The notes under the pieces are model-generated. The model was not told where the DNA came from, made no database searches, and was given only the letters and a program-made list of their open reading frames with translations. Positions 2,942 through 39,483 of a DNA stretch of 40,535 bases are shown here, one piece after another. Positions within the stretch are counted from its first letter, which is position 1, and each line of letters begins with the position of its first letter. Origin of the DNA: Cryomorphaceae bacterium. GTDB taxonomy: Bacteria > Bacteroidota > Bacteroidia > Flavobacteriales_D > Crocinitomicaceae. The position numbers and the translations under genes are program-made. The stretch covers positions 1-40,535 of the forward strand of contig JAJTDQ010000003.1 in the NCBI GenBank assembly GCA_021300505.1, read 5' to 3'.

Positions 2942-3964
2942 ATGAAAGAATATATTGACGAGCTGGCTGGACAGATCGAGGCGTATTCAATAACGAATAC
3001 AGCAACACTTGAAGAGTTCAGGATTCATTTCTTAGGATCAAAAGGCGTGGTGAAGGAGTTATTTTCATCCTTAAAAACTGTGCCCAACGAGGAGAAAAAG
3101 GAAGTAGGACGATTGCTGAATGACCTTAAAATCAAGGCAGAATCTAAACTTGAACTATTTAAGGAGCAACTGGCATCGCAACAAACGACCAGTGAGCGCA
3201 TTGACCTCTCTCGTCCTGCGGAAGATTCGGGTATTGGAGCGCATCACCCGCTATCACTAGTGCGCAATGAGATCATTTCAATTTTTTCACGCATCGGATA
3301 CGAGGTTTCTGAAGGACCAGAAATCGAAGATGACTGGCACAATTTCTCGGCGTTAAATTTTCCGCCTGAACATCCCGCTAGAGATATGCAGGACACTTTT
3401 TTTATTGAAAAGGGTGAAAAAGAAATGGCACTGCGTACACACACAAGCTCGGTCCAAGTGCGAGTTATGGAAAACAGCACTCCGCCAATTCGCACGATAT
3501 CACCAGGAAGGGTGTACCGCAACGAGGCCATTTCTGCCCGTGCGCATTGCTTCTTTCATCAAGTGGAAGGCTTGTACATCGATAAAAATGTATCCTTCGC
3601 GGACTTGAAGCAGACGCTCCTTTATTTTGCCAAAGAAATGTTCGGTGAAAAAGCACAAATTCGCCTGCGCCCCTCTTATTTTCCTTTCACAGAACCAAGT
3701 GCTGAAGTAGATGTATCCTGTTCAATCTGCAACGCAGAGGGATGTAATGTGTGCAAATATTCCGGTTGGTTAGAAATTCTTGGATGTGGAATGGTCGACC
3801 CGAATGTGTTGAAGTCATGCGGTATAGATCCTGAAGTTTATACAGGTTTTGCTTTCGGAATGGGAGTAGAACGCATTGCACAGTTGAAGTTTAAGGTCAG
3901 CGATCTTCGCCTTTATTCAGAAAATGATGTGCGTTTCTTGAAACAATTCACACCCGGCGTATAA
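2942..3964 (+). CDS. pheS: Phenylalanine--tRNA ligase alpha subunit
   Basis: PheS (340 residues, normal length) forms the catalytic half of the alpha2-beta2 enzyme that charges tRNA-Phe. The N-terminal coiled-coil (about 1-85) is followed by the class II catalytic domain. Motif 2 is visible as RVYRNEAISARAHCFFHQVEG and motif 3 as GFAFGMGVERIAQL (302-315). A four-cysteine cluster at 260, 263, 268 and 271 (CxxC and CNVC) is a Bacteroidota-type insertion that may bind metal. pheT is not nearby. TACCTTCG at 2859-2866 may be the -7 element, though the upstream spacing is poor. ytxJ follows after 3 bases, so the gene is probably the first of a three-gene transcript. Confidence 0.97.
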   Translation: MKEYIDELAGQIEAYSITNTATLEEFRIHFLGSKGVVKELFSSLKTVPNEEKKEVGRLLNDLKIKAESKLELFKEQLASQQTTSERIDLSRPAEDSGIGAHHPLSLVRNEIISIFSRIGYEVSEGPEIEDDWHNFSALNFPPEHPARDMQDTFFIEKGEKEMALRTHTSSVQVRVMENSTPPIRTISPGRVYRNEAISARAHCFFHQVEGLYIDKNVSFADLKQTLLYFAKEMFGEKAQIRLRPSYFPFTEPSAEVDVSCSICNAEGCNVCKYSGWLEILGCGMVDPNVLKSCGIDPEVYTGFAFGMGVERIAQLKFKVSDLRLYSENDVRFLKQFTPGV

Positions 3965-3967
3965 GTT

Positions 3968-4342
3968 ATGGGATGGTTTTCAAATTCATCGGCGGAGGAA
4001 AAATCACTTCCATGGATTCCACTTACAAACATTGAGGCACTAACGAATGCCTTGGAATCAACCGAACGACCAGCACTTTTTTTCAAGCACAGCACGCGTT
4101 GCAGCATTTCCATTATGGCGCTTAGTCGTCTTGAACAGCGATGGTCATTGGCGCCAGAAGAGTGCGATCTTTATTTTATTGATCTGCTCAATCATCGCGA
4201 TGTGTCCAATGAAATTGCTACAAAAACCAATATCGTTCATCAATCACCACAAGCCATTCTGTTGCGCAACGGTGAAGTTATATACACAGCAACACATGGA
4301 GACATCGACGCTGGGGAAATGGCAAAAATCTTAAGTCACTAA
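3968..4342 (+). CDS. ytxJ: Bacilliredoxin-like protein YtxJ (monothiol)
   Basis: This 124-residue thioredoxin-fold protein belongs to the bacillithiol-system YtxJ/BrxC family. FFKHSTRCSIS (about 38-48) holds the single active-site cysteine, Cys45. The cis-proline region reads HQSPQAILLRNGEVIY near the C-terminus, as expected. The family removes bacillithiol from S-bacillithiolated proteins, or uses a related low-molecular-weight thiol, in the cytoplasm. It lies 3 bp after pheS and 1 bp before the cyclotransferase gene, which suggests co-transcription without implying a shared pathway. Whether this organism makes bacillithiol cannot be judged from the window. Confidence 0.88.
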   Translation: MGWFSNSSAEEKSLPWIPLTNIEALTNALESTERPALFFKHSTRCSISIMALSRLEQRWSLAPEECDLYFIDLLNHRDVSNEIATKTNIVHQSPQAILLRNGEVIYTATHGDIDAGEMAKILSH

Positions 4343-4343
4343 C

Positions 4344-5417
4344 ATGAAAAAGTACCTGATCATTGGCTTGATCATCGCATTTGCTGGAGCGATGGTTTTT
4401 CGTTCATGCGCACCTTCATCGACAGATGATTCAAATTCAGAACTACCTGCTGCTTTTGCTTTTGACGACAACCTCGCAACTCGCTGGGATGAAAAAGTGG
4501 CGATTGAAATCGTAGTCAATAACCCAGACGTGGAGACGTTGGAGTTAATATACAACGACAGCACATTCGCCAGCTGGTCTTCTCCCAAAAAGAAGATTAC
4601 CTACCAACTGAAAGCCGGTTTTTACGGTCTTGGTGCACGTCAAGTGGAGTTGGTGGCAACGTTGAAAGATGGCAGCAAGTCATCCGACAAGCGTATCATT
4701 CGTGTTCTTTCTGATGTCGTTCCTGAGATTTGGATTGCTGAAATTACACGCGACTATCCGCATGAGGTTACAAGCTTTACACAGGGATTGGAATTCAGTA
4801 ATGGCCAGTTGTACGAAGGAACAGGCAACCGAGGAGAAAGTATCTTGGCTCAAGTGAACCTATCCAGCGGTAAAATTGTCAAATCTATGGGCTTGGACGG
4901 CAATTACTTCGGCGAAGGCATCACCATTTTAAACGGGAAGATTTATCAAATCACATGGCAGGAGCAAACGTGTTTTGTGTACAAACAATCGGATTTGACC
5001 TTGATGAAAGATATAAAATATTCTGGTGAGGGATGGGGCTTGTGCAACGATGGCAAGTCATTGATTATGTCAGACGGTACCGAGCGCATCACATTCCGAA
5101 ATCCAGAAACATTTGCCATTACGCGCACCATTGAAGTGTACACACACCAAGGCCCAGTGACTAAATTGAACGAGCTGGAATATGTCGACGGATTGATTTA
5201 TGCGAATGTCTGGATGACCAACAAAGTGGCGGTGATTGATCCAAACAATGGAAAGGTCGTGGCGGAACTCGATGCAACTGAGCTTGTTCGTCAAGGACGA
5301 GGAAATGGTGATGTGCTCAATGGAATTGCCTACAACCCAGCGACGAAAAAGTGGTACATGACGGGCAAGAAATGGCCGAAGTTGTTCGAGGTAAGCTTTA
5401 AGAAACCAACTTCTTAG
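4344..5417 (+). CDS. Glutaminyl-peptide cyclotransferase (beta-propeller type)
   Basis: The 357-residue product matches the plant/bacterial-type glutaminyl cyclase family (Glu_cyclase_2), a five-bladed propeller that converts N-terminal Gln to pyroglutamate. The first ~22 residues are a membrane signal ending in FRSC; a lipoprotein anchor is possible, though the lipobox is atypical. About residues 35-110 form an Ig-like preface. The propeller begins at FTQGLEFSNGQLYEGTGNRG and includes GDGTERITFRNPETF-like and LNELEYVDGLIYANVW blades and a final GDVLNGIAYNP. The enzyme would act in the periplasm. Most signal-peptidase-I-type proteins in this window have Gln at the mature N-terminus and are plausible substrates. 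Confidence 0.9.
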   Translation: MKKYLIIGLIIAFAGAMVFRSCAPSSTDDSNSELPAAFAFDDNLATRWDEKVAIEIVVNNPDVETLELIYNDSTFASWSSPKKKITYQLKAGFYGLGARQVELVATLKDGSKSSDKRIIRVLSDVVPEIWIAEITRDYPHEVTSFTQGLEFSNGQLYEGTGNRGESILAQVNLSSGKIVKSMGLDGNYFGEGITILNGKIYQITWQEQTCFVYKQSDLTLMKDIKYSGEGWGLCNDGKSLIMSDGTERITFRNPETFAITRTIEVYTHQGPVTKLNELEYVDGLIYANVWMTNKVAVIDPNNGKVVAELDATELVRQGRGNGDVLNGIAYNPATKKWYMTGKKWPKLFEVSFKKPTS

Positions 5418-6455: not shown

Positions 6456-7520
6456 ATGACCAGGCTTCTGATCATTCTTGGTTTGTGCGTCAACATTACC
6501 GTTTTTGCACAGACTTCAGAAAAATACAACAGTGAATATGCGGGCTTTTACCGTGCGGAAGAATTGTACGAAAAAGAGCAGTTTGCAGCGGCGCGTATGG
6601 AGTTTCGTGCGTTTATCGATCAACTCGGTAAACCAAACGACCCTATGTATGTCAAGGCAAGGTATTATGAAGGTATTTCTGCATTGGAGCTTTCCAATAA
6701 TGACGCAGTCGCACTACTGGAAAAATTCAATGCAGACTATCCAGAAAGTATTTATCACAAAGAAATCTTTTTCCGCCTAGGGAAGTTTTTCTATCACAAA
6801 AGTGATTTTAACGAAGCATTGATTTGGTTCAATAAGTTGAGTGTAAAGGATGTTTCAACTGATAACCAATCTGAGTTTTTATTTAAGCTGGGTTATGCCA
6901 ATTTTCAAGAGAAGAACTACGACGCAGCGAGAAGTGCATTTCACGACATTAAAGACGATTCAACCCAATATAGCACCCCCGCGTTGTATTTTTATTCTCA
7001 CATCGCTTACATGAATGAGGGTTATCCAGTAGCTGAGAAAGGCTTTTTAACGTTGATGAAAACGACACAATTTTCATCTATCGCCCCATATTACTTGGCT
7101 CAAATTTATTACTTACAGCGTGAGTACGAAAAGGTCATTGACATTGCCCCTAGTGTAATGGACACCTCAAAGGTGTTCAATCAAAACGATATGAATCACT
7201 TGGTAGGTGACTCCTATTACCGCCTAAACAAATTTTCAGAAGCGGTGCCATACCTTGAGGCATACAATAAAAACGCACAAACCACCCGAGATGATGATTA
7301 CCAGTTGGGCTATGCTTGCTACCGTTCTGGCCTGTACGATAAGGCTGCGAGAATGTTTGACCGTGTGGCGAATGGTAAAAAGGACAGTTTAGCACAAGTG
7401 GCGCTGTACCATACAGCAGAATCGCGCATGAAACAGAACAACTTGGCGTCTGCACGTTCAGCCTTTGGCGCAGCAGCAGCCATCAATGTTGATCCAAAAA
7501 TTCAAGAGGATGCCCTTTAA
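6456..7520 (+). CDS. Large periplasmic TPR protein, N-terminal part (ends at in-frame TAA)
   Basis: These 354 residues open with a signal peptide ending VFA, followed by Gln. Tandem tetratricopeptide-like units follow (AEELYEKEQFAAARMEFRAF, RLGKFFYHKSDFNEALIWFN, YQLGYACYRSGLYDKAARMF). They end at TAA (7518-7520). The same frame then continues without interruption for another 662 codons, with the TPR pattern unbroken. The original gene was therefore 6456-9509, about 1,017 codons, and the stop probably replaces a Tyr codon (DAL-stop-NLAVLSY). The protein should scaffold an envelope complex, likely with the barrel encoded next. Either this is a nonsense mutation or a sequence error. Confidence 0.85.
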   Translation: MTRLLIILGLCVNITVFAQTSEKYNSEYAGFYRAEELYEKEQFAAARMEFRAFIDQLGKPNDPMYVKARYYEGISALELSNNDAVALLEKFNADYPESIYHKEIFFRLGKFFYHKSDFNEALIWFNKLSVKDVSTDNQSEFLFKLGYANFQEKNYDAARSAFHDIKDDSTQYSTPALYFYSHIAYMNEGYPVAEKGFLTLMKTTQFSSIAPYYLAQIYYLQREYEKVIDIAPSVMDTSKVFNQNDMNHLVGDSYYRLNKFSEAVPYLEAYNKNAQTTRDDDYQLGYACYRSGLYDKAARMFDRVANGKKDSLAQVALYHTAESRMKQNNLASARSAFGAAAAINVDPKIQEDAL

Positions 7521-9510: not shown

Positions 9511-11229
9511 ATGAGAACGAAAAGAGTTATAGCCATACTTGCCGCATTCTTGCCATTACTGTCTTTTTCACAGGGTGACTTGGTGATCATTAATGGAGTT
9601 GGAAATAGAGATATTCCACCGGCGTACCGTATCAGCATGAATCCTTCTATCATTGACACAATGATTGGAACACAAGTACAGCAATATCCTCTGTTGTCAT
9701 TGCGCTTTCCTACATCCATTGAGTTAGATACGATCAAAGCTGTTACTATCAAAGTTGCGCCGAAATTGCAGCAATTGTATTCTACGTATGTGAAGTTGGG
9801 TATAGGTTCTGAGTTGATGCCACTTGGTGAGGTGTACTTCGATTCGAAACGTTCGCGCAAATATGTTTATGGCGTGCACGCCAAACACCTCAGTTCATAT
9901 GGCAACTTTACTGGGTACGCGCCAGCGCAATTCGACCGTACGCGCGCCAATGTGTTTGGAGCAATCAACGAGAAGAGTTATTCACTTCGTGGAGATGTGC
10001 ATTACAACAACCAAGGATTACATTATTATGGATGGCAAATCCCTACCGACTCTGTAGATCGCAGCACAACGGCACAACGTTACCAAGACGTGGGAGGTGT
10101 TTTTTCCTTCGATTCACATAAAAAAGATAGCGCGACGTTGAACTACAAAATCAATGTGGCTTACAATCACTTTAACTCGAAAAAGCCTTCAGATTCGTTA
10201 AGCGCGTGGAGAGGAAGTGAAAACTATGTGGCAGTTGGAGGTTCGGGTTGGTACCGCCAAGGAAGGGAAATATTTGCTGCAGAAGCGAATGTGCGCTACA
10301 ATGGATACCGTTACGGAACACTGTCGGATACCCTACAATTTGTAGCAGATTCTGGGTTGGTAGTAAACAATACAGTGGTTAATCTTAAACCAACAGTGAC
10401 AACTCAACTTTGGAACAACCGTTTCCGTGCGGTCATTGGATTTGATTTTGTCGTCGATGCACACACACAGACAAAGGTGCATCTCTATCCTGTCGCTGAA
10501 CTGAAATACTCGTTGTTTAATGACATATTTATTCCGTTTGTTGGGGTTCGAGGTGGATTGAAACAACGCACATTTAGATCAACGGTAGATGAAAACGAGT
10601 TTGTGTTGTCAAACCTTCAATTGAGAAATGAAAACACGAGCATTGATGTATATGGAGGAATCAAAGGAACACTTTCAAGCCGTATCAGCTTCAATGTGAA
10701 TGCAAGCTTTGCACGCGTAAAAGACAAGGCATTCTTTATTACAGACACACTATTCTCTGTTGGGAATAAGTTCGGGTTGATCTACGACACTTTGAATCAA
10801 ACAACCATTGAAGGATCTGTCTCCTATCAGTTGAATGAGAAATTGAAAGTAGACGCTATTGGACGCTACTATTCGTATTTATTGTTGAACAACACCTATG
10901 CGTGGAATCTTCCGCAATGGCAGGCAGGCGTTCGTGGGAGCTACAATTTGTACGATAAGTTTCTCGTGAACTTAGACGTGAATTTTGAAGGAGGCCGAAA
11001 AGCATTGGTATATGACGCTACGGAGTCGGATGTGACATTGGAAAATGGACAGTTGGCAAAGAGTATGGGATTGATTACGGACATCAACCTTGGCTTGGAG
11101 TACCGCTACAACAAACGCATCTCCGCCTTTATTCAATTCAACAACTTGGCTTCGCAGAGATACTACAGATGGTATAACCATCCGGTACAAATCTTCCAAG
11201 TGATGGGGGGAATTACGGCACGTTTCTAA
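9511..11229 (+). CDS. Outer-membrane beta-barrel protein (TonB-receptor-like barrel, no plug)
   Basis: The 572-residue protein has a signal peptide (ending SFS, then Gln). A short N-terminal segment rich in prolines (PAYRISMNPSIIDT) leads into long amphipathic strands such as GEVYFDSKRSRKYVYGVHAK and SYSLRGDVHYNNQGLHYYGW. It ends in a strand with terminal Phe (MGGITARF), the outer-membrane barrel signature. The ~150-residue plug and a TonB box are not visible, so it resembles the barrel half of a TonB-dependent receptor. It lies 1 bp after the large TPR gene. I infer a TPR-barrel complex of unknown job. Its stop overlaps the stop of lspA by 4 bases. Confidence 0.82.
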   Translation: MRTKRVIAILAAFLPLLSFSQGDLVIINGVGNRDIPPAYRISMNPSIIDTMIGTQVQQYPLLSLRFPTSIELDTIKAVTIKVAPKLQQLYSTYVKLGIGSELMPLGEVYFDSKRSRKYVYGVHAKHLSSYGNFTGYAPAQFDRTRANVFGAINEKSYSLRGDVHYNNQGLHYYGWQIPTDSVDRSTTAQRYQDVGGVFSFDSHKKDSATLNYKINVAYNHFNSKKPSDSLSAWRGSENYVAVGGSGWYRQGREIFAAEANVRYNGYRYGTLSDTLQFVADSGLVVNNTVVNLKPTVTTQLWNNRFRAVIGFDFVVDAHTQTKVHLYPVAELKYSLFNDIFIPFVGVRGGLKQRTFRSTVDENEFVLSNLQLRNENTSIDVYGGIKGTLSSRISFNVNASFARVKDKAFFITDTLFSVGNKFGLIYDTLNQTTIEGSVSYQLNEKLKVDAIGRYYSYLLLNNTYAWNLPQWQAGVRGSYNLYDKFLVNLDVNFEGGRKALVYDATESDVTLENGQLAKSMGLITDINLGLEYRYNKRISAFIQFNNLASQRYYRWYNHPVQIFQVMGGITARF

Positions 11230-11927
11230 TTGGCTGAATCTTCTGTTTTCTTCTGGAAAAGACGCTTGAAAAAACTTGGTTTTTTCTCCGTTTTGTTGCT
11301 CGGAAAATAGGTGCGTTGACGAAGAAAGACCATTACAACACCAATGGTGATTGATGCGTCTGCAAGATTCCAAATAGCTGGAAACACTTCAGAGCCACCT
11401 AGCCAAGGCATTCCTTTTGGCCATGTTGCTTGGAATTTAAACATATCAACCACATTACCCATTAAAAATCCAGTGTGGCGCTGTTCAACAATAAAGCTCT
11501 CAAAGCATTTTGCCTTCACGCCAGAACCTTCTAATTGATTAAACCCGATACATGGATCAAACGGAAAAATGAAATCGTAGCACATCGAATCGATGAGGTT
11601 GCCTGTGGCGCCAGCGAAGATTAATCCTACCGCGACAAGAAACTCCCGACGGGCCCCGGCTTGTGACTGTTTGTACCAATAGTAACCGATTCCAGCGATA
11701 GCAATGATTCTGAAAATACTAAGTGCCAACTTGTGCCACATCTTATTTCCGAAGGTGGTGCCAAAGGCCATTCCTTGGTTTTCGACATATTCCAACACAA
11801 ACCAATCGCCAAAAACAGGAACCGATTCCGTTGGGAAAAAGTGGGTTTTAATATAGATTTTTATGAATTGATCTGCCAATAAAATAAGAAGCACCAATAC
11901 ACCAACAACCCACAAATTTTTTCTCAC
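11226..11927 (-). CDS. lspA: Lipoprotein signal peptidase II
   Basis: LspA is the inner-membrane aspartyl protease that cleaves the signal peptide of diacylglyceryl-modified prolipoproteins. Catalytic Asp161 (GNVVDMFKF) and Asp190 (FPAIWNLADASI) are visible, together with VENQGMAFG and GATGNLID. Four hydrophobic segments fit the fold. At 233 residues it is longer than the common ~160. The extra length is an insertion of about 45 residues between GNLID and VVDMF (containing three Cys), as in other Bacteroidota, and a basic C-terminal tail. It starts 3 bp after the dksA-like gene and is expected to share its transcript. It would process the lipoproteins encoded in this window. Confidence 0.95.
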   Translation of the reverse strand: MRKNLWVVGVLVLLILLADQFIKIYIKTHFFPTESVPVFGDWFVLEYVENQGMAFGTTFGNKMWHKLALSIFRIIAIAGIGYYWYKQSQAGARREFLVAVGLIFAGATGNLIDSMCYDFIFPFDPCIGFNQLEGSGVKAKCFESFIVEQRHTGFLMGNVVDMFKFQATWPKGMPWLGGSEVFPAIWNLADASITIGVVMVFLRQRTYFPSNKTEKKPSFFKRLFQKKTEDSAN

Positions 11928-18558: not shown

Positions 18559-19311
18559 TTAGTTCTTGATGAACTTGATCGTTTCTTTTCCTCCGGCGTG
18601 ATTAACAACAACGAAGTAAACACCGTTATTCAAACCATTCAAGTTGATTTCCAACGAATTTCCAACGATGTTCAATGCACGAACAACCTTACCCTCCATG
18701 TTTGTCACTTCAATAGAAGTGATGTTCATGTCTGGAGTAATTCCGTAAAGTGTAACATTTTCGTTAGCTGGATTTGGCTTAAGGTTCAATGGCTCATAAA
18801 TAGCATCAACCGTTCCTGCTTGACCAACAACAATGCGGTATCCAGAGAAAGACGTCGATTGTGGAAGTGCCGTCGGTGGGAATCCAGGGATGATTGTAAT
18901 CAACACCGTAGCTGTAATGTAGATTTCAACCGGGTATGTTCCTGTTGCAGTTGGTGTTCCGTAAAGATTTGCACATCCGTTAGCTCCACCAGCATATTCA
19001 CAACTAGAAATATTACATACGTAGCTCATTCCTGCAGGAAGTCCGCCTACGCTGTCTACAACGAATCCTTGGATAGGTGTTCCAACAAGTGTTCCTCCAG
19101 TTGGATCAAGTTCAGCAGTTACCTCAGCAGGAACTTTGAAGTTCAAGTCTGTAGAGTAGGCAACGTTCACTGCAGCATAAGGGAAGTTCTGAACTGTATC
19201 AGGCCATACTCCATAAACTGAATCAGCATAATTTGCTCCTGGAGTACATGATTGTGCGCTTGCACTCATGGCTGCAGAAACGATAGAAACAACAAGTAAA
19301 AGTTTTTTCAT
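18559..19311 (-). CDS. Secreted protein with T9SS type A sorting domain
   Basis: The start is the ATG at 19311 (250 residues); a longer frame would begin upstream of the promoter. The signal peptide ends SASA, followed by Gln. The mature N-terminal ~160 residues contain six or more Cys and Ig/cadherin-like features (LDPTGGTLVGTPIQG, GTPTATGTYPVEIY). The C-terminal ~75 residues form a type A sorting domain: LKPNPANENVTLYG, then MEGKVVRALNI, then NGVYFVVV and KETIKFIKN. T9SS should export it to the cell surface or medium. The gene has its own promoter (19337-19368) and terminator, so it is monocistronic. Confidence 0.9.
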   Translation of the reverse strand: MKKLLLVVSIVSAAMSASAQSCTPGANYADSVYGVWPDTVQNFPYAAVNVAYSTDLNFKVPAEVTAELDPTGGTLVGTPIQGFVVDSVGGLPAGMSYVCNISSCEYAGGANGCANLYGTPTATGTYPVEIYITATVLITIIPGFPPTALPQSTSFSGYRIVVGQAGTVDAIYEPLNLKPNPANENVTLYGITPDMNITSIEVTNMEGKVVRALNIVGNSLEINLNGLNNGVYFVVVNHAGGKETIKFIKN

Positions 19312-19426: not shown

Positions 19427-20278
19427 TTATTGGATTACAATGCGCTCAGTTGCTCGATTTCCTTGCTCATCGATGGAAATTAATGTGTACACTCCAGGGT
19501 TCAAATCCAATCCTGCTAAAGTGCCATCATTCTTGAAGTTCAACGACTTGAGAACGATACCAAGGTCGTTTGTGATCACAGCGCTGCGAACAGTTGCATC
19601 AGCACGCAAAGTCACATGACCTGATGAAGGATTTGGGAAAACACTGATGTTGGTTCCCATTGGCAAGCCAACGCCATCAAGTATTTGTGGGTTGCTCACC
19701 ACTGGTGGATTTGGCTGAGTAACTTCAAATTTTCTATACGTGCTGCATCCTATTTCGTTGGTAATTGTAACACCATAGTGACCGGCGCTCAATCCAGTTT
19801 GATCCTCATTGGTAACAATTAAATTGCCATTATTATTAAGGCTTATTCCCTCCCAAATGAATGTTGGATTTATTTCGTTAACATCCAGTTTGATACTTCC
19901 ATCTGAACCGTGGAAAGTGGAAACGTTATTGACCATTGATGTTACCTGTAAGTCAGAAGGATCAACAAGAATCACATCTGCGGAAGCAGAGGTTGAGGAA
20001 TTATCGGTGATATCAAAATGGTAGTTTCCTGCCCCAAGACCGCTGATTTCAAAAACGTTGTTATCAATAGGTTGATTATTTACTTTGTATGGTGCTACAC
20101 CTCCTCCAATAGTGAAATAAATTTTTCCGTTTTGGTCTCCATGACAAAGGGGTGAACGTCGCTCGATTTCTATTTTAATTGGATTCTTTGTTGTTCCAAT
20201 TACTGTGGAAAATTGTGCGTTGGATTGAAATGCTGTGGCAATAAGTCCTGTTGCGAATAAAATGTTTTTTGTTTTCAT
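19427..20278 (-). CDS. Secreted protein with SprB-like repeats and T9SS type A CTD
   Basis: I start at the ATG at 20278 (MKTKNILFATG, 283 residues), the same opening as the paralogue upstream. The signal peptide ends SNA, then Gln. Two SprB-type repeat units are seen: RSPLCHGDQNGKIYFTIGG with APYKVNN, and VNNVSTFHGSDGSIKLDV with HYGVTITNEIGCSTYRKF. The last ~80 residues are a type A sorting domain (NISVFPNPSSGHVTLRAD to NPGVYTLISIDEQ). SprB repeats occur in large gliding adhesins, so an adhesive surface role is possible. The gap to the paralogue is 65 bp with no clear terminator, so co-transcription is plausible. Confidence 0.88.
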   Translation of the reverse strand: MKTKNILFATGLIATAFQSNAQFSTVIGTTKNPIKIEIERRSPLCHGDQNGKIYFTIGGGVAPYKVNNQPIDNNVFEISGLGAGNYHFDITDNSSTSASADVILVDPSDLQVTSMVNNVSTFHGSDGSIKLDVNEINPTFIWEGISLNNNGNLIVTNEDQTGLSAGHYGVTITNEIGCSTYRKFEVTQPNPPVVSNPQILDGVGLPMGTNISVFPNPSSGHVTLRADATVRSAVITNDLGIVLKSLNFKNDGTLAGLDLNPGVYTLISIDEQGNRATERIVIQ

Positions 20279-20343: not shown

Positions 20344-21003
20344 TTAGTTTACAGATCCTCCGGTTGAGTTGTTTGCCCCATTGATGTTTGGGTTAACACC
20401 AGGCATAAATCCTCCACCGCTCGTTCCGGTTGTCCCTTGAGGTGCTTGTTCTACGGTGAATCGCTTGTTTGTTTCACATCCGTATAGGTCAATTACAGTT
20501 ACTGCATATACACCTGCGATAAGTCCATTTTGATCTTGTTGCATTGGCACAAGTCCTGATCCATCAGGTGTTGACCAGTTGTAAGAAACTCCAGGGTAGC
20601 TTACTGTAAGGTCGATTGCCCCATCGTTACCACCGTATGTGCTCACGTTTGTTACTGCAGCTGACATCTCAAGTTGTGGCGGTGTAACCAATTGCACCTC
20701 GATAGTTGTGTTGGTCAAAAGTGGATCTGAAATGTAGAAACTATATTGTCCAGCGATTAGATTCGTCACTTCAAATGAGCTACCAACGATTTCAAGTCCG
20801 TTTACAGAGTACGGAGGAAATCCACCAGTAATGTCAATCGTAATTACACCATCATTGCTTCCAAAGCATGAAGGGTTTGTGTTAACCATTTGCACCGACA
20901 TCGGAATTTTTTCCTCTGTAATTTGAGCAAATGATGAAAAGGCCGAAAACAGATACGTTACTGTTAAAAGACCTGTAGCGAAAATGAATTGTTTAGTTTT
21001 CAT
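20344..21003 (-). CDS. Secreted SprB-repeat protein without a sorting domain
   Basis: The start is the ATG at 21003 (219 residues, MKTKQFIFATGLL), which gives a clean signal peptide ending SSFA, then Gln. It has two SprB-like repeat units: TNPSCFGSNDGVITIDITGG with PPYSVNG, and VTNVSTYGGNDGAIDLTVSY with AGVYAVTVIDLYGCETNKRF. It is a paralogue of the gene downstream. The C-terminus differs: a Gly/Asn/Ser-rich tail (about 30 residues) replaces the T9SS CTD, and no lost CTD reading frame can be found past the stop. It may stay periplasmic or rely on a partner for export. Confidence 0.82.
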   Translation of the reverse strand: MKTKQFIFATGLLTVTYLFSAFSSFAQITEEKIPMSVQMVNTNPSCFGSNDGVITIDITGGFPPYSVNGLEIVGSSFEVTNLIAGQYSFYISDPLLTNTTIEVQLVTPPQLEMSAAVTNVSTYGGNDGAIDLTVSYPGVSYNWSTPDGSGLVPMQQDQNGLIAGVYAVTVIDLYGCETNKRFTVEQAPQGTTGTSGGGFMPGVNPNINGANNSTGGSVN

Positions 21004-21450: not shown

Positions 21451-22269
21451 TTAATGTTTATTAAAATTCAAACGGTACGAAAGACCACCATTAATAAACC
21501 CATTTGGCATTTCCTTCGCTAAACCGAATCCTGATGATAAATCGAACTGTAAGTTTTCTTTGGCTCGCCAAATAATGCCCCCATTAAAACCTGGAAGTAA
21601 ACCATTGATTTTATCATAATTACCATATACCTCTGCAAATACACCAACACGTTGCATTAACATCCAATCCAAACCTAAGGAATTGAAATATGATGGGTTT
21701 ATTTCTTCACCATCCCAAAACAACCCATTATTTAAAGTAAGTAACCAATCGTCTGATAAATCCCATTCCATTGGAATTAAAATAGATGGAGAAAAAGAAA
21801 AAGAGGTTAAATGACTTGATGCCCAATTAGGGATACCCATCATACCAAGCAAAGCGGTACTTGGAATCCACCCTCCCCCTTCAAAAACTTTTACTTTAAA
21901 GCCAAAAGAAAGCGGTGAAAATCCTACACGAGACTTGTTTACCACAGATGTAGATGAGCCTATTGGCTTGTAAGAACTAAAATCTTGCCCAAGATTCCAA
22001 GCAAATCGAAATTCAAAAAAATCAGAAAGCCCTAATCGTAAAAAAGTTGTATTGTAAGCAACATTTTTTAAATGAAGACTAGTAAATAGTGAACTAACAT
22101 AGGAATTATCCCACTGATAATTTCCACCAGATTCAATTTGTAAATAACCTTTGCGCAGCACTTGAGAGGATTCCCCGAATCCTGGACGATCGGGTTGTAT
22201 ATCGTAACCAGTTTGAGTGAAAATAAAAGTTGAAACACTCAAAAAGGAAAGAAACAAAAAAGTTTTCAT
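21451..22269 (-). CDS. Outer-membrane transporter-like beta-barrel
   Basis: The 272-residue product has a signal peptide ending FIFT, then Gln. Its mature N-terminus, DIQPDRPGFGESSQVLRKGYLQIESG, matches the start of the Phenol_MetA_deg/transporter family barrels of Bacteroidota. Alternating amphipathic strands follow, including SDFFEFRFAWNLGQDF and LDWMLMQRVGVFAEVYGNYD. It ends in FINGGLSYRLNFNKH. It should form a barrel in the outer membrane with an unknown solute. A promoter is present at 22314-22345. The next gene downstream is unrelated and on the same strand but 440 bp away. Confidence 0.8.
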   Translation of the reverse strand: MKTFLFLSFLSVSTFIFTQTGYDIQPDRPGFGESSQVLRKGYLQIESGGNYQWDNSYVSSLFTSLHLKNVAYNTTFLRLGLSDFFEFRFAWNLGQDFSSYKPIGSSTSVVNKSRVGFSPLSFGFKVKVFEGGGWIPSTALLGMMGIPNWASSHLTSFSFSPSILIPMEWDLSDDWLLTLNNGLFWDGEEINPSYFNSLGLDWMLMQRVGVFAEVYGNYDKINGLLPGFNGGIIWRAKENLQFDLSSGFGLAKEMPNGFINGGLSYRLNFNKH

Positions 22270-23732: not shown

Positions 23733-25202
23733 ATGAAAAATATCTTGACAATTTTATTTCTTTCAGCAACAGTGGTTTATGGTCAAAACACCATGACCCT
23801 TACCAAAGCTGAATACCAACAGCTGAAGCAATCGGGAATGCTTTCTCCCAATGTTCAATACCAAATTTCAGATGCCGTAGTTCCCACGAACATCAAGTAC
23901 AATGGTGGAAACGAAAAAAATGCCGTGTGTGATTGCATGGTACCGCTTGATTCGACATTTACCTTGGCGATGTTACCAAACGATGATGAGTCAACCGGAT
24001 TGATCAACTTGCCGTTTACCTTTGATTTTTACGGGACATCATTTAATTCACTTTACATCAACAACAACGGAAACATTTCATTTGACTATCCCTATTTCGC
24101 TTTTACTCCAAATGCGTTTCCTGATTCATCAACACTGATGATCGCGCCTTTTTGGGCAGATGTAGATACACGTGGTACCCTAGATAGCCTGGGAGTTCCA
24201 ACAGGTAATGGAGGAAGTGTTTGGTATAAGTTGACCCCAACAGCATTGATTGTGAACTGGAATCAAGTGGGCTACTTCAATTACCATAATGACTTGGTAT
24301 CGACATTTCAATTGATTATTTCCAATGGTTCTGACTCTTTGGTGTCTGCAGGAGGAAATGTGTCCTTTTGTTATGAAGACATGCAATGGACAACAGGTGA
24401 TGCCTCAGGTGGATGGGGTGGTTTCGGAGGTGCACCAGCAACAGTGGGATTGAACACAGGAAATGGGGTGAATTACTTTCAAGTAGGACAATTCATTCAG
24501 TCAGGTGCAGATTTTGACGGTCCAACGGGACTTCCGGATGGCGTTGATTTCCTTGATGGTCAAGAAATTTACTTCAACGTATCCGGGGCAAGCGCAAGCA
24601 ATACACCACCACTTCTTGTAAGCAGCTCAATTTGCGATACCATCGATGTCTACACAGGAGACACCTTAGTGAAAGCCTTAAATTCAACTGACTTCAATTT
24701 TGGTGTGATGACACCTGAGATCGATCAAACAATAGAAATTTCAGCTTCTTCAGACATTCCAAATGGTGCTTTTACTTACTCAGTAACACCTGTTGGCACT
24801 CAGTATTACGATGTAGCGGCTACATTCAATGCGACGGGTATGGCGCCTGGATTTTATCATCTTGACATCACCGTAACAGACAATGGCATCCCGGCAGGTG
24901 TCACAACCAAACAATTTGTTTTCGAAGTGATTTATGACGCATCAGCACAGATTGATGAAACGACTTCAGCAGCGTTCAAGATGTATCCCAATCCAACCGA
25001 AGGAATGTTCACCATTTCAGTCAACGACAATCTTGAATCACCTCAAGTGGTGGTCAACGATCTTTCTGGAAAGGTATTGTTGACGCAAACGATTGAGCAC
25101 CAAGAGCAAATTGATTTGTCGTCATTGTCCGGAGGTGTTTACATCGTTAGTATCCTAGTGGCAGATCAAGTTATCGGCGTTCAACGCATCATCAAAGAAT
25201 AA
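23733..25202 (+). CDS. Secreted nidogen-like protein with T9SS type A CTD
   Basis: The 489-residue protein begins with a signal peptide ending VVYG, then Gln. Residues ~85-280 resemble a nidogen-like (NIDO) domain: FYGTSFNSLYINNNGNISF, SSTLMIAPFWADVDTRG and TALIVNWNQVGYF. An Ig/cadherin-like segment follows (about 295-400). The last ~80 residues are a type A sorting domain (FKMYPNPTEGMFTISV, then VVNDLSGKVLLTQ and GGVYIVSI). It should be secreted through T9SS and might mediate adhesion. It is monocistronic, with a strong terminator 21 bp after the stop. Confidence 0.88.
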   Translation: MKNILTILFLSATVVYGQNTMTLTKAEYQQLKQSGMLSPNVQYQISDAVVPTNIKYNGGNEKNAVCDCMVPLDSTFTLAMLPNDDESTGLINLPFTFDFYGTSFNSLYINNNGNISFDYPYFAFTPNAFPDSSTLMIAPFWADVDTRGTLDSLGVPTGNGGSVWYKLTPTALIVNWNQVGYFNYHNDLVSTFQLIISNGSDSLVSAGGNVSFCYEDMQWTTGDASGGWGGFGGAPATVGLNTGNGVNYFQVGQFIQSGADFDGPTGLPDGVDFLDGQEIYFNVSGASASNTPPLLVSSSICDTIDVYTGDTLVKALNSTDFNFGVMTPEIDQTIEISASSDIPNGAFTYSVTPVGTQYYDVAATFNATGMAPGFYHLDITVTDNGIPAGVTTKQFVFEVIYDASAQIDETTSAAFKMYPNPTEGMFTISVNDNLESPQVVVNDLSGKVLLTQTIEHQEQIDLSSLSGGVYIVSILVADQVIGVQRIIKE

Positions 25203-25950: not shown

Positions 25951-27107
25951 TTAAAGATTAACGACACGTTTAGCACTTCTTTTCTTTCCGTCAAGGATAA
26001 TCACTGAACAGGGTTCTGTTTGTTCCAATTTCTTCTTAACAAATTCCCCCTTTTGATTGTACATATAAGTGGTCACATTACAAAGCGTACCATCTTCAAA
26101 CAATAGGTTTCTTGGTGAATATTTCCACTCGGCTGATTGTAGGTAACACTGTAAAATCTGCCGTCTGGCAATTGATATTCGTAGTTGGTTCGCTGCTTGA
26201 ACTCATTATATCTCAAGGTATACAAATATTCCGGACACCAGTTTGTGAATCTTCTGTATTCTCGTATATCTCCATCATCAAATCGTACAATGTATTCATT
26301 ATAAAGGTCATTGAATTGGTTGTAGAAATATTCATTTTTCAGCGAACAGCTGTCGGGAGGTAAAGTGGTCATGTGAATACAACCATCGCTTGTGTTTATG
26401 TTATCTACGTATTTGTTAAAGTAGAAATAGTTATATCCATTTGTTTTGATGTAATATTTCTGACGCTCTATGGATACAACGGTATCGGCACTGCGTTTTA
26501 TGTTCAAATCAATCATTTGGGTGATTTGCCCCGGCTCCGGCATAAGCTCTTTTCCGTTGATTGGTGTGTTTTTATCAAAGTCATTGTAATAGGAATAAAT
26601 GCTGTCTCCAAGCGCTATTCCATTCGGATTGTAAGTGACATTTACTTTGTAAATACCGGCAAATAAGGGCACGCCAAAACTGTGGTGCGAAGCGTTTTGG
26701 GTGTGGTAGTTGTAATAGTTTTCAAAATCATTCAGGTAAATGGGAACAACAAGTTGTTCAAGTGGTTTCAGGTATCTAATCTGAACATTACCAGTATCAT
26801 GAACCATCATGTTCAGCATTCGATCTTCGGTATATCTCAATAACAGTGTATTATTGGCTTTGTCGTAGGCATTTAAGTAAAACAGCTTTTGACCTACATT
26901 TTGCGTATGGGGCAATAAAACAGGAAGTGTTCTTTCTTTATCGTTGTTCGTGATCGTGATAAAAAAAGTAATTTTCTCCCCTTCGTAATAGCTTTCTTTG
27001 TCTGTGCTCAGAATAAAGCTGATCGGATGATATTTTAGGTTACCAAAAGCATTTTTATTGATTACTAAAATCAGAAAAGTCAATAAAATGGATTTAATTA
27101 TGTTCAT
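25951..27107 (-). CDS. Exported protein of unknown function, frameshifted near its 3' end
   Basis: The start is the ATG at 27107 (signal peptide MNIIKSILLTFLILV, then NAFG). The N-terminal ~110 residues look like a beta-sandwich of the alpha-2-macroglobulin/BsuPI kind (SYYEGEKITFFITITNNDKE). The C-terminal part has repeated aromatic strands separated by Gly (YEYQLPDGRFYSVTYNQ). The uninterrupted frame ends at 26073, but the tail after 26132 loses its pattern. The -1 frame gives a better match: EWKYSPRNLLFEDGTLCNV, then YMYNQKGEFVKKKLEQ, with its stop at 25951. Restoring one G (CAG-GCC) joins the halves to about 385 residues. The family is not recognised. Confidence 0.75.
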
Positions 27108-27469: not shown

Positions 27470-30142
27470 TTAATACTTCTCAATCAGCATTTTTTTATGA
27501 CCTAGTGATGTGTGAACCTGAAGCAAATACATACCCGAGCTCAAGTTATCCAAATAAATCGCACCGGTTTTTGAATTCAAAATATGTGTTAGTACCGCTC
27601 TACCAGACATATCAGTAATCTGCGCAACACATATTTTACCTTCACTTATCAATTCAATGTTCAGAATAGATTTTGTAGGATTAGGATAAACTTTCATTTG
27701 AATATCCGATACTTCAGCAATTCCAGAAAATGAAGTATGTAAAGTAGTGGCGGTGTCGGTTCTTATTGCAGGATTAAAGTCAAAATAAATATCTGCAAAG
27801 TTGTTAATGAATTGTCCAATCGGTAATGTTCCGTTTTGTTTAATTCGGAACTTTACCATTCCCATTGATCCTAAAGGGTCTGAAAGACTATCAGGAAGCA
27901 TAATTCCTGGAAAGAAAAACTTTGCTACGTTACCATCGGTAATTGACAAATTCATAGGAGAATGGCTCGAAGTAATTATTTCCATACTAGCCATTTCTAA
28001 AAACTGCGAAGGTAGCGTATCTGCAATCAGTACATCATAAGCGGGTGCATTTCCAAGATTTTGAAAATGTATTTCATACTCAAGCCATGAAGGGCTTGTA
28101 ACATTTATCAAAGTATCATTATTTACCCACTTGTAATTTGGATCGTATGGTCCGACAACCAGTGAAGTAGATGAAGATAAGTTGTCACCGGGTGTTTGGT
28201 CACTAGCGGATGGTGAAATGCTGGCTGAAGAAACTAAAGGATCTCCAATTTGCATAGTGGTAGGAATGTTATAATAAATAAAAATATTCTCTACAGTTCC
28301 TGGATTAATTACACCGAGGTTCCAAGAACTCAATTGTCCGTTTTGGCTGCTAGGGGATGGGCTCGCCATTAAGTAATCGAGATTGGCATCGGCGTTTATG
28401 TCAACCATAGCGTTCAGCGCAGTGGTTCCAACATTTTTGTAGGTTAAAATATATCCAAGTACATACCCTGCTTTTGGAGCTGTAATAGGTGAAATCGAAA
28501 TTCTTAAATCATTCATATTTGGCGAAGGATAAAAACCAAAGTGGTTCAATGAATCACATGCACCCAAACCTATGAAATTTGCCGACTGTATTGCAGGTGT
28601 GGTGAGCGTATGGTATAGTGGTGGGTAAGGAATAGATACATCGTAAGCGCCTGATATGGTGAAGAGATTAAATTCACCTGCAAGATTTGATGAAACCACA
28701 AAATTATTGGCGTCCAATTGCACCATTACGTTCGGGATGCCGGGTTCAGTAAAATTTAATACGCCATCGTTAGACCCATCAGAAAAGACTATTCCCTTGA
28801 TTAAATTTGCATTATCAGTAATTCTGGCAGCATATCCTAGTGAGAGTCCAATTGAGTCATTTGCAATAACAATGTGCCCTGATCCAAAACCCGAAAACCA
28901 AACATCATCACCAGTAGTTGCGCAAACGGCATAGGTAAAATGAGGATCTGTTGATCCTTTTGAATTAAGCGCCCATTGAACTGTGCCTGAAGAATCTACC
29001 TTTGCGTAAAATGATTTTTTCAAGCTGTTTGAAGACAAGGCAAAACTTCCCATATTCATGTTCCCTTCAAAAGTACCTGTCCAATACACGTTGCCATCTT
29101 GATCACAGTCAACACCTAAGCCTTCGTCTTGCCCGGTTCCGCCAAACGTTTCTAACCACGACCAGGTACCGGAGTTGTTCAATTTTCCTAAAAATGCGTC
29201 GCCACCACCGTTAGTATTTGTTACAACAAAAGGCCCGTAAGTGCCTGGGCTTCCCGACATAGTAAAATATACATTTCCCAAATCATCCGCAGTAATGCCG
29301 TATATATTTCCTCCACCATCAAATAAATTTGTCCAGACCTCATTGCCATTTGCGTCAAACTTGGTAATAAAATGATCATTAGTGCCGACTGAAATCGGAT
29401 TAGAATTCACATTTAATGTGCTTGAGAATGTTACGCCACTTAAGTATGCATTGCCAGCCGGATCAACTGCTCCTGCATACGTAAAATCAGCACCTGTTCC
29501 TGAACATTTACTGATCCATTGAGGCGTGCCTGAATTATTAAATTTAATTACAAAAGCGTCATGGCTACCGGAAGCAATCATAGAAAGTCCTCCCCAAGTA
29601 AAATTCGTACTTCCTGCATCGCCAAATAAATAAATAGTGCCTGCGCCATCAGAGGCAATGTCGTTTCCGTCATCATTAGTTGAGGAACCACCGCCATTAC
29701 TGGCAAACAAGGGGATACCTGAAGCAGCATCAATTTTAACAAGGTACGCGTCTTTGCCACCATTAGATGTAATTGAAAGTGAACCCGCATTTAACGTACC
29801 ACTAAATTGACCGGTAACCCAAACGTTTCCTACACCATCGTATACTATACTGCCAGCCCAATCACTCTGAGTGCCCCCAATAGAGGTTGCCCAAAGCACA
29901 TTTCCTGTAGGATCATACTTTACAATAATTTCGTCTTGAAGCCCTTCACTAGTAAACGGTGTTCCATCAACATCGATGGTATTGATATATTGACCTATGG
30001 TGTATGCATTGTTGAATTCGTCTACCGTAACACCATATGCACCAAAAGCATAAGGAGACATCCAATCAACCACTTGGGCTGAAATATTATGATAACCCGT
30101 AATTAATGATAATGCTATAGTGAGGTATAATTTGTTTTTCAT
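27470..30142 (-). CDS. Large secreted SBBP-repeat protein with T9SS type A CTD
   Basis: At 890 residues this is the largest intact product. The signal peptide ends ISA, then Gln23. Residues ~30-450 carry repeated SBBP-type propeller units (DEIIVKYDPTGNVLWATSIGG, DAYLVKIDAASG, DAFVIKFNNSGTPQWISKCSG, DHFITKFDANGNEVWTNLFDG). A SdrD B/CarboxypepD-like domain follows (GIVFSDGSNDGVLNFTEPG, ~450-510). Next come Ig-like DUF11/DUF7619-type domains (~530-800, SWLEYEIHFQNLGNAPAYDV). The CTD is ~815-890 (MKVYPNPTKSILNIEL, SSGMYLLQV). T9SS should export it, probably as a cell-surface or adhesive protein. Its promoter is not clear. Confidence 0.9.
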   Translation of the reverse strand: MKNKLYLTIALSLITGYHNISAQVVDWMSPYAFGAYGVTVDEFNNAYTIGQYINTIDVDGTPFTSEGLQDEIIVKYDPTGNVLWATSIGGTQSDWAGSIVYDGVGNVWVTGQFSGTLNAGSLSITSNGGKDAYLVKIDAASGIPLFASNGGGSSTNDDGNDIASDGAGTIYLFGDAGSTNFTWGGLSMIASGSHDAFVIKFNNSGTPQWISKCSGTGADFTYAGAVDPAGNAYLSGVTFSSTLNVNSNPISVGTNDHFITKFDANGNEVWTNLFDGGGNIYGITADDLGNVYFTMSGSPGTYGPFVVTNTNGGGDAFLGKLNNSGTWSWLETFGGTGQDEGLGVDCDQDGNVYWTGTFEGNMNMGSFALSSNSLKKSFYAKVDSSGTVQWALNSKGSTDPHFTYAVCATTGDDVWFSGFGSGHIVIANDSIGLSLGYAARITDNANLIKGIVFSDGSNDGVLNFTEPGIPNVMVQLDANNFVVSSNLAGEFNLFTISGAYDVSIPYPPLYHTLTTPAIQSANFIGLGACDSLNHFGFYPSPNMNDLRISISPITAPKAGYVLGYILTYKNVGTTALNAMVDINADANLDYLMASPSPSSQNGQLSSWNLGVINPGTVENIFIYYNIPTTMQIGDPLVSSASISPSASDQTPGDNLSSSTSLVVGPYDPNYKWVNNDTLINVTSPSWLEYEIHFQNLGNAPAYDVLIADTLPSQFLEMASMEIITSSHSPMNLSITDGNVAKFFFPGIMLPDSLSDPLGSMGMVKFRIKQNGTLPIGQFINNFADIYFDFNPAIRTDTATTLHTSFSGIAEVSDIQMKVYPNPTKSILNIELISEGKICVAQITDMSGRAVLTHILNSKTGAIYLDNLSSGMYLLQVHTSLGHKKMLIEKY

Positions 30143-37267: not shown

Positions 37268-38206
37268 TTACTCAAATAATGGACATGCCGACGTGCTGCT
37301 GCGCTCCTTACGACAAGAGTTGTAACTTAAGGAAATTTCATGGGTGTTGCTGCTCGCTTTACGGAGGGCTGAAACAGTGGCATCGAACGAATATTGTATC
37401 GATAACCGCTGATTTATCTTAAATCCTGCGAAAAAGACAAGACAATCTTGATTTCTAAACCCCAATCCGAAGTTGAATTGATTGTTCAAATCAGCCATCA
37501 TTTGCAGGTCAAGAGCTACTGGTCCTCGGCTCGGAATCTTGATCAGCACGGCAGGAATCAGTGTAAATTTATCGGTGAATTGAAAACGATATCCTGCATT
37601 GAGAAGGGCATGAAAATGAAATTTTGAACTCGTTCCAATATTTTTCCAACGAGATGCGATGAGATGATCGAGTACCAAACCGGCGTAATAATTTTGACCA
37701 TTCCACCACGCGCCAAAAGAGGCATCTGGAACAACGAAGGAGGCTTCTTTCAGTACCGTAGGATCAGGATCGATGGTAGTGCTCGAACTTGGATCATAAC
37801 CCAATTGAATCACCCCGCCATAAAGTCCAAGTGACAAACGTGTGTCGCGCGTAAAATTGAAATGGGCAGCATAGGCAGCGTTCAGCCGGTTCGTATTGAA
37901 TTGACCAATGCGATCACTTTCGAAACGCATGCCAATCCCTTGCCTTGCAGAAAAGTACTGTTTCCTTTTTGCGTTTAGTGGTGCAGAAAGCGTAAACATC
38001 CCAGACCTTGGTGCTCCACCAAATCCAACCCATTGTGTACGATAGAGCGTGTGCACATCGATGCATGATTTGATGCCTGCATGTGCTGGATTTAGCGCGA
38101 ATTGATGCGAGGACCATTGGGAGTATTGGGCGATTTGCTGCGCGAAGATTTTACCTGAACTCAGCAGTAAAAATGCTACTAGGGTTATGTGAATCAAGCC
38201 CTTCAT
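37268..38206 (-). CDS. PorP/SprF-family T9SS membrane protein
   Basis: The 312-residue outer-membrane barrel has a signal peptide ending KIFA, then Gln. The opening, YSQWSSHQFALNPAHAG, then YRTQWVGFGGAP, is the hallmark of PorP/SprF proteins (NPAxAG and YRxQWxG). Strands follow to the C-terminus. SprF-like proteins help particular type B CTD substrates leave through T9SS and often sit beside them. Here the gene starts inside the last codons of the type B cargo gene (4-bp overlap, ATGA), so the two are translationally coupled. SprF-cargo specificity is inferred, not shown. Confidence 0.93.
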   Translation of the reverse strand: MKGLIHITLVAFLLLSSGKIFAQQIAQYSQWSSHQFALNPAHAGIKSCIDVHTLYRTQWVGFGGAPRSGMFTLSAPLNAKRKQYFSARQGIGMRFESDRIGQFNTNRLNAAYAAHFNFTRDTRLSLGLYGGVIQLGYDPSSSTTIDPDPTVLKEASFVVPDASFGAWWNGQNYYAGLVLDHLIASRWKNIGTSSKFHFHALLNAGYRFQFTDKFTLIPAVLIKIPSRGPVALDLQMMADLNNQFNFGLGFRNQDCLVFFAGFKINQRLSIQYSFDATVSALRKASSNTHEISLSYNSCRKERSSTSACPLFE

Positions 38207-39483
38207 CGTACTAAGGTAATACTGCCGTTAAACACTTGTTCTTCCGCATTACGAAGTTCTATAATGTAAAAATAGACACCCTCGTTGAGTGGATTTCCAT
38301 TGTGTGTACCATCCCATTCCTTTCCACTTGAATAACCAACGGACTGAAATACTTCTTGTCCCCAGCGGTCAAAAATCTTGACAAAACAATCGGTATAAAC
38401 GTTGATTCCGATGATTTCCCAGGTATCATTTGTTCCGTCATTATCAGGTGAAAATGTGTTTGGAAAGAACAAAGGTGAGGCAACACTAATCACGACTTGA
38501 TCTTGCAAAGTACAGCCATTTTCTGTCGCTGTCAAGGCATATACGGTTGTCATTTCGGGACTTACGAAAGGTGTTAAACTATTGGTGTCACTCACACCAA
38601 AGGCAGGACTCCAAATGAATGTTGCGCTGCTGCTCGATCCATTGAGTTGAACACTTTCCCCGGGATGAATGGTCATGTCTTGACCAGCATTTACAGTGAG
38701 TGGATAAACAGAAATGGTCACTCCACTTGATGTAATTGTTATGGGACATTGCGCATAGCAAGAGTTTTGCACGCTGAGTACATCACCATCATCGAGTGTG
38801 CTCGTTTGAAAAATGCTGTCTGTTGTCACGGCGACAAGCTCCCCATTGATATACCACTGATACGTTCCGGAATCTGGACATGCGCTTAAACTTGCTGTAG
38901 CTGTCAATAACTCATTTGGACAAATGCTTGTATCACTCGTCGTTATGAAAACGCCTGATGCCGCGCGGTCAACGCCAATTCCGCTCAAAGTGAGATCAAA
39001 AGTACATTCAGCAGGCGTAGTGAGGCCTGGTGCTGGCGATTCTCCAGAAACAACAAGATAATACGTAGTTGAGGGGTTGAGTGTTGCTGCCAATGAAAAA
39101 GGAGTTGAACCTGAAGAGACACAGTTTCCAACCGCAATATATGAAGCAGGATCACAAGGCAGGCTTGCGCTAAACATGGTCGCTTGTAATGCAGTTCCTA
39201 TTTCAAATCCAGGCTGAAACACCAAATTGGAGAAATCAATCTGAACAGCCCCTCCTATAGTATTGGTAGTAAACTTGAACCAGATGGTATTGTTTGCCGT
39301 GAAGCAGAAGTTAAAATCGTCCTCACAACCTGGGCATACGGTTTTATTGGCACCGATGTTCGTGACAGAAATCGTCACATTGGGACACAATTCCAATGCT
39401 TGCGAACACACATTGTAGTCACTTTGAGCGACCGAAATCTGTGATAAAAACACCGTTAACAAGAAAATAACAAGTGGCCTCAT
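38203..39483 (-). CDS. Secreted protein with T9SS type B (gliding-associated, CHU_C) CTD
   Basis: The 426-residue product has a signal peptide ending SVA, then Gln. The N-terminal ~150 residues resemble a jelly-roll/CUB-like module with several Cys (CPGCEDDFNFCFTANNTIWFK), followed by Ig-like domains (DTSICPNELLTATASLSACPD; NAGQDMTIHPGESVQLNGSS). The C-terminal ~85 residues are a classic type B CTD: FPNTFSPDNDGTNDTWEI, VKIFDRWGQEVFQS and NGNPLNEGVYFYII. It is likely a T9SS-exported surface protein. The SprF-like gene overlaps its stop and is the likely dedicated helper. Confidence 0.93.
   Translation of the reverse strand: MRPLVIFLLTVFLSQISVAQSDYNVCSQALELCPNVTISVTNIGANKTVCPGCEDDFNFCFTANNTIWFKFTTNTIGGAVQIDFSNLVFQPGFEIGTALQATMFSASLPCDPASYIAVGNCVSSGSTPFSLAATLNPSTTYYLVVSGESPAPGLTTPAECTFDLTLSGIGVDRAASGVFITTSDTSICPNELLTATASLSACPDSGTYQWYINGELVAVTTDSIFQTSTLDDGDVLSVQNSCYAQCPITITSSGVTISVYPLTVNAGQDMTIHPGESVQLNGSSSSATFIWSPAFGVSDTNSLTPFVSPEMTTVYALTATENGCTLQDQVVISVASPLFFPNTFSPDNDGTNDTWEIIGINVYTDCFVKIFDRWGQEVFQSVGYSSGKEWDGTHNGNPLNEGVYFYIIELRNAEEQVFNGSITLVR

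Follow-up and report, generated by a model that had tools for sequence, protein, structure and literature searches.

The open reading frame at positions 4344..5417 (+ strand) very probably encodes the glutaminyl cyclase that serves the Q-rule of its host, a Bacteroidetes bacterium from water. This best explanation of the whole has a computed basis: homology, a predicted fold, conserved catalytic residues, Gln at the +1 position of exported proteins throughout the sampled genome, and no second recognizable cyclase in the assembly. The gene lies in the window, by which we mean the whole stretch of DNA that was analyzed; its 40,535 bases are an entire contig of a 2.41 Mb assembly (174 contigs, 85% complete). 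A Q-rule with its cyclase is, as stated, already published in kind. The Bacteroidetes Q-rule was described in 2018, with 332 of 334 species above 48% (PMC5837995). That paper reports two cyclase lineages, of which the plant type is typical of Flavobacteriia, predicts 376 of 430 plant-type cyclases to be lipoproteins, and leaves open which membrane holds the cyclases of other species. In 2023, the P. gingivalis cyclase was reported to be essential and to protect its substrates; it was named as a drug target, and a plant-type cyclase from Nonlabens could replace this animal-type enzyme (PMC10653852). What our analysis adds to the published Q-rule is a probable lineage-specific change of membrane anchor.

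The initial annotation called the gene a glutaminyl cyclase, and this identification was borne out. The product (357 residues, ATG start) matches Glu_cyclase_2 (PF05096) at E 1.4e-89 over residues 125-352, corresponding to positions 20-249 of the 249 in the profile, and matches the PDB entries 3nol, 3mbr, 3nok and 2faw at E values from 4e-55 to 2.4e-49. It is thus a type I glutaminyl-peptide cyclotransferase, the plant-type enzyme with a beta-propeller fold. A model predicted from a 40-row alignment had a mean pLDDT of 90.6, and its top fold matches were the papaya, Xanthomonas, Zymomonas and Myxococcus cyclases, with target TM-scores of 0.87-0.94. Residues 1-31 scored below 50, so the model is uninformative on the anchor. 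Within the catalytic propeller domain (4716..5399, +), Q147, E158, N276 and K342 correspond to Q24, E69, N155 and K225 of the papaya cyclase, whose catalytic residues are those named in PMC5837995. E158, N276 and K342 do not vary across the 40 aligned sequences, and Q147, assigned by its position in the motif, fills the Gln/Glu site.

The propeller is preceded by an extra Ig/FnIII-like beta-sandwich domain (residues 30-126; 4431..4721, +), which was recognized from its own model and a fold search. Modeled alone, these residues reached a pLDDT of 91.2, and their best fold match was the fibronectin-III-like module 3pe9 (E 7.6e-5); in Pfam, Big_9 matched at E 0.15. Cyclases of families f1, f4-f6, f10, f11, f13, f15, f16 and f20 have room for such a domain before the propeller (127-172 residues), while the corresponding segment is too short in families f14, f18, f33-f35, f38, f43 and f47 (44-69 residues). 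Lengths in between were found in f52 (105 residues, with a doubtful start) and f59 (99 residues).

Open reading frame 4344-5417 is the one PF05096 match of the assembly, and a query with an animal-type cyclase returned no match there at E 0.001. With an estimated 85% of the genome assembled, another cyclase could be missing from the assembly. We considered the four M28 matches of this genome as candidates for a second cyclase and rejected them: the animal-type query recovers none of them at E 0.001, and one, a protein of 304 residues that was compared with the PDB, is closer to aminopeptidases than to cyclases. The enzyme had been described as the obvious catalyst of the Q-rule. As the sole PF05096 match it is the likely catalyst, but "obvious" overstates a role deduced from homology, and two relatives that keep the Q-rule with no recognized cyclase (see below) mean that the pairing of cyclase and Q-rule is not shown to be obligatory.

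To count residues at the +1 position, we applied a simple, purpose-written signal-peptide predictor that ignores this residue to 60 stretches of the genome, covering 760,514 of the 2,408,460 assembled bases. The first version of the predictor (threshold 6.5) gave Gln at +1 in 46 of 90 proteins, against 0-10 of 90 at any other position between -8 and +13. When the 54 non-Gln cases at threshold 6 were inspected by eye, many proved to be membrane proteins or to have shifted sites, and some were apparently real exceptions. A stricter version accepted ATG starts and removed 25 lipobox and 10 TM-like sequences from 124, leaving 89 proteins with signal peptidase I-like sites. Gln occupied +1 in 54 of these (61%) against a background of 3.6% (binomial p ~2e-54). 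If the site was allowed to shift, the count rose to 63/89 (71%); however, the same script applied to 300 kb of E. coli K-12 yielded 2/27 at +1 and 6/27 by the site-tolerant measure, so the site-tolerant count is inflated. The Q-rule reading of the initial annotation was therefore upheld when +1 Gln was counted against background, with the excess extending across the sampled genome.

In this respect the window is unremarkable for its genome. The product of each of the eleven genes listed in the initial annotation starts, as claimed, with a signal peptide made up of a short basic n-region and a hydrophobic stretch, with Gln directly after the cleavage site. In order of their starts, and with a slash marking the predicted cut, these genes encode a TPR protein (6456..7520, +; VFA/Q), a protein with neither a Pfam nor an NCBIfam match (9511..11229, +; SFS/Q), two Por_Secre_tail cargo proteins of the type IX secretion system (T9SS; 18559..19311, -, ASA/Q and 19427..20278, -, SNA/Q), an SprB-repeat protein (20344..21003, -; SFA/Q), a PF13557 (Phenol_MetA_deg) family protein with a weak site (21451..22269, -; IFT/Q), a T9SS cargo with a NIDO domain (23733..25202, +; VYG/Q), a T9SS cargo of 890 residues (27470..30142, -; ISA/Q), a PorP/SprF T9SS membrane protein (37268..38206, -; IFA/Q), a CHU_C-type T9SS cargo (38203..39483, -; SVA/Q), and a PorG-like exported protein that runs off the window (39645..40535, +; AKA/Q; NF052316 at 2e-9, below its cut-off). 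Type IX secretion C-terminal domains are present in five of the eleven (Por_Secre_tail in four and CHU_C in one). The predicted signal peptide of the one exception, an exported protein with no Pfam match (26073..27107, -), ends in AFG and is followed by Asn, again as annotated. The predictor that is blind to +1 placed the cut before the same Gln in seven of the eleven proteins and fell four or five residues short in three (those starting at 20278, 22269 and 38206); the gene at 39645 was left unscored because it has no stop before the window ends.

In the mechanism that we propose, signal peptidase I would cut Sec-exported proteins such that Gln becomes the new N-terminus, and the cyclase on the periplasmic face of a membrane would turn this Gln into pyroglutamate. 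By analogy with the P. gingivalis papers, the modification would shield the proteins from aminopeptidases. In the family of the host, an uncleaved N-terminal helix, apparently a replacement for an ancestral lipid anchor, may often fasten the cyclase to the inner membrane. A cyclase anchored in this way would be expected to remain there, at the site of signal peptidase I action.

We compared the N-termini of 82 cyclase orthologues from the family and order, after dropping the partial copy L221. Anchor classes were assigned by a Cys rule alone, and hydropathy was left out of the rule. By this rule, 43 orthologues are of TM type, their first 40 residues being free of any candidate Cys. A lipobox was assigned to 29 (25 strict and 4 loose), and the other 10, among them the window enzyme, are ambiguous. 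The TM-type orthologues with which the window enzyme groups have a hydrophobic N-terminal anchor of 16-22 residues (MKKYLIIGL...VIVPLL). Hydropathy over 19 residues ranged from 2.35 to 3.34 for the TM type (n = 43) and from 0.95 to 2.22 for lipobox cyclases (n = 29); the values for 67 signal peptides with Gln at +1 were 1.02-2.24. We also drew 250 random pairs per class and used those with core identities of 35-60%. Identity over the first 24 residues was 44% for TM-type pairs (core 53%, 174 pairs) and 29% for lipobox pairs (core 42%, 230 pairs), suggesting that the TM anchor is better conserved in sequence than the lipobox N-terminus, with the caveat that cores were not matched between the classes.

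On a quick tree of the cyclases, built without the first 40 residues, the TM label requires 8 changes, against a mean of 27.7 for shuffled labels (0/500 shuffles as low). With the ambiguous rows left out, the lipobox and TM states require at least 5 changes. The tree gives no direction to these changes, but the prevalence of the lipobox outside the family would make it the older state. Among 60 cyclase loci outside the family, 48 have a strict lipobox (47 found by script and, if a downstream start is used, L260 by eye), 6 a loose one, 3 are ambiguous and 3 are hydrophobic without a lipobox; L252, one of the ambiguous loci, has a hydropathy of 2.72. This count does not include twenty further loci (L050-L069), a number of them from other phyla, whose N-termini were also read. 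Within the genus of the host, 24 located N-termini comprise 18 of TM type, 4 with FRSC and 2 with a lipobox; the window, G019 (not located) and the second copies L219 and L220 are excluded from these figures. The latter are second, divergent cyclase copies in two same-genus assemblies (G022 and G532, respectively), where contamination is possible. Elsewhere, the three cyclases sampled from one distant genus of family f59 (L261, L323 and L324) have N-termini that are hydrophobic but lack a lipobox. Their hydropathies are 2.84, 2.48 and 2.11, the third protein having a late Cys, and they may represent a second origin of the transmembrane anchor. Together, these comparisons suggest that a lipid anchor gave way to a transmembrane helix in these cyclases, probably on more than one occasion, and such a switch would confine the reaction to the inner membrane, close to signal peptidase I. 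No transmembrane-anchored cyclase was apparent by title or abstract among the literature matches listed; the word "transmembrane" occurs once in the main text of PMC5837995 and is absent from that of PMC10653852.

The window enzyme itself is harder to place. Its N-terminal hydrophobic anchor (residues 1-22, MKKYLIIGLIIAFAGAMVFRSC; 4344..4409, +) could be an uncleaved signal-anchor or a poor lipobox. It is a serious, if tentative, alternative that this cyclase is an ordinary lipoprotein, cut by signal peptidase II before Cys22 of VFRSC. The possible lipobox of the initial annotation stands insofar as the Cys is present, but it is doubtful, with Arg at -2 and with Cys-less orthologues as its nearest group. 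VFRSC fails the PROSITE lipoprotein pattern because of this Arg; nevertheless, lipobox orthologues with unusual residues at -2 exist in the family (FQSC and FNSC), and the strict lipobox prevails in the 48 of 60 loci from outside it. FRSC is kept in all five close relatives (the window and L070-L073), but the sisters share 89-94% identity with the window protein, which makes this nearly one observation. Hydropathy favors a lipoprotein, since the window cyclase (2.15) and its four sisters (2.15-2.30) lie below all 43 TM-type orthologues. Among 47 lipobox-like proteins of the sample from its own genome, hydropathy reached 2.43 (10/47 at 2.0 or above), which overlaps the lowest TM-type values and places the 2.15 of the window enzyme within the upper lipobox range. 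Descent points the other way: the window and the four VFRSC sisters branch among Cys-less TM-type cyclases, in a branch of 19 rows (support 96), 14 of them of TM type, which is nested in a branch of 37 rows (support 80) made up of 32 TM-type rows and those five. The window also carries lspA, the gene for signal peptidase II (11226-11927, -; PF01252, 2.8e-33), 6 kb from the cyclase, and the enzyme that cuts lipoboxes is thus encoded nearby.

The cyclase gene is widespread in the lineage. It was found in 24/24 genomes of the same genus and 147/150 of the family, and in 112/113 family genomes with a completeness of 90% or more and no more than 5% contamination. Six public MAG contigs titled Chitinophaga pinensis, Candidatus Kuenenia or Chryseobacterium gleum (L023, L024, L025, L031, L041 and L043) carry a Crocinitomicaceae-type cyclase locus and are probably mislabeled records. 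Two genomes that are each 99% complete, G450 from the same family and G030 from the same order, had no PF05096 match, and an animal-type query found weak M28 matches alone (best E 4.3e-5 and 3.1e-5, respectively). Both keep the Q-rule, with Gln at +1 in 28/44 (G450) and 25/41 (G030) proteins. Where +1 is not Gln in these genomes, Asn is one of the most frequent residues (5/41 in G030 and 3/44 in G450), and it also occupies +1 in the sole exception of the window. G030 also contains two signal peptidase I-like frames in tandem (C8:76663-79423), compared to one frame in each of the other nine genomes searched.

These two genomes could point to a third, unrecognized glutaminyl cyclase in Flavobacteriales, which we consider unlikely and less well supported than the switch from lipid anchor to helix. 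We asked whether the M28 proteins of G450 are divergent cyclases and rejected the idea: of seven matches, three were read and two were compared with the PDB, both being nearer to aminopeptidases; the PDB comparison covered these two of the seven and none of the five in G030. In G450, brxC, which commonly adjoins the cyclase gene in this family, is followed by a LytTR-like response regulator (named by eye). As proof that G450 has lost its cyclase, this synteny is weakened by the 9/40 family loci that have no brxC upstream of the cyclase, and the G450 gene may accordingly lie elsewhere, in a gap. A single absence in 113 could result from assembly gaps alone, and a gap may likewise account for the case of G030. 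An absence count across the phylum was set aside as evidence, because the phylum may include classes outside the Q-rule. Among 392 phylum genomes, 114 had strong PF05096 matches (118 less four weak ones) and 127 had animal-type matches at E 1e-20; both types occurred in 10 (by eye) and neither in 161, although one animal-type query may miss divergent forms.

G450 and G030 also bear on whether the cyclase serves the Q-rule at all, given that the rule persists in both with no recognized cyclase of either type. Gln might cyclize spontaneously or through another, unrecognized enzyme, leaving the cyclase to act on other substrates. We regard this explanation as improbable. Presence in 112 of 113 good family genomes suggests a core function, the one missing case is what assembly gaps could give, and in P. 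gingivalis the animal-type enzyme does the same job, is essential and was replaced by the plant-type enzyme of Nonlabens (PMC10653852).

The immediate neighbors of the cyclase gene are of a different kind from the exported proteins. It is the third gene of a tight run that begins with pheS, for the phenylalanyl-tRNA synthetase alpha subunit (2942..3964, +; PF01409, 4.9e-96, and synteny), and continues after three bases with brxC/ytxJ, for a monothiol bacilliredoxin-like protein (3968..4342, +; PF11009, 7.7e-33; TIGR04019, 1.4e-33), which ends one base upstream of the cyclase. brxC adjoins the cyclase in 23/23 same-genus loci (L070-L092) and 13/13 further family loci (L169-L181). It was present beside the cyclase in 31 of 40 more family loci, examined over about 450-600 bases of upstream flank; the other nine are mostly from early-branching lipobox genera. 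Outside the family, where flanks are often short, no locus gave a brxC match. No functional rationale for the three-gene run is apparent. On the other side of pheS, the window has two short adjoining lipoprotein-like genes with the motifs SSGC and FSGC (2014-2786, -), and a similar pair lies beside pheS in G450 (L308, 2746-3602).

That the cyclase and the Gln-first genes are clustered through joint function is very hard to credit: Gln follows 11/12 sites on the contig of the cyclase against 54/89 elsewhere (Fisher p = 0.05), but p rises to 0.17 against the site-tolerant 63/89, the hand-curated window count is favored over the automatic genome count, the conserved neighbors are pheS and brxC rather than exported proteins, and Gln at +1 is common on sampled contigs without the cyclase. 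Their sharing of the window, which the initial annotation had emphasized, is therefore uninformative, and the co-location is incidental.

With the cyclase as the likely Q-rule enzyme, the window offers a textbook example of a pathway already in the literature. The wider interest lies in the family. Sorting to the outer membrane would not be expected of a cyclase with a TM helix, and the family would thus be a natural test of cyclization beside signal peptidase I. This bears on the point left open in 2018, whether cyclases of other species are at the inner membrane (PMC5837995), as against the plant-type cyclase found in the outer membrane in 2023 (PMC10653852). If confirmed, Q-rule genomes that lack any known cyclase would indicate an enzyme yet to be recognized.

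The closest functional parallel is PgQC of P. gingivalis (PG2157; PMC5837995, PMC10653852), where Gln likewise follows most signal peptidase I sites and the cyclase is periplasmic and membrane-attached. However, PgQC is an animal-type (type II) enzyme of the inner membrane with a clear lipobox (LSAC), whereas the window enzyme is of plant type with a poor one. In fold, its nearest counterparts are the type I cyclases of papaya (2faw, 2iwa), Xanthomonas (3mbr), Zymomonas (3nol) and Myxococcus (3nok), which share its beta-propeller and catalytic residues; the window enzyme differs from them in adding an N-terminal Ig/FnIII-like domain and a membrane anchor. NsQC of Nonlabens sediminis, which was tested in P. 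gingivalis, is a plant-type cyclase like the window enzyme, and its size of 39.1 kDa suggests that it may carry a similar extra domain. The construct tested placed NsQC behind the lipobox of PgQC, and the protein was located in the outer membrane (PMC10653852). In contrast, the family of the window enzyme includes TM-type forms, which should stay in the inner membrane.
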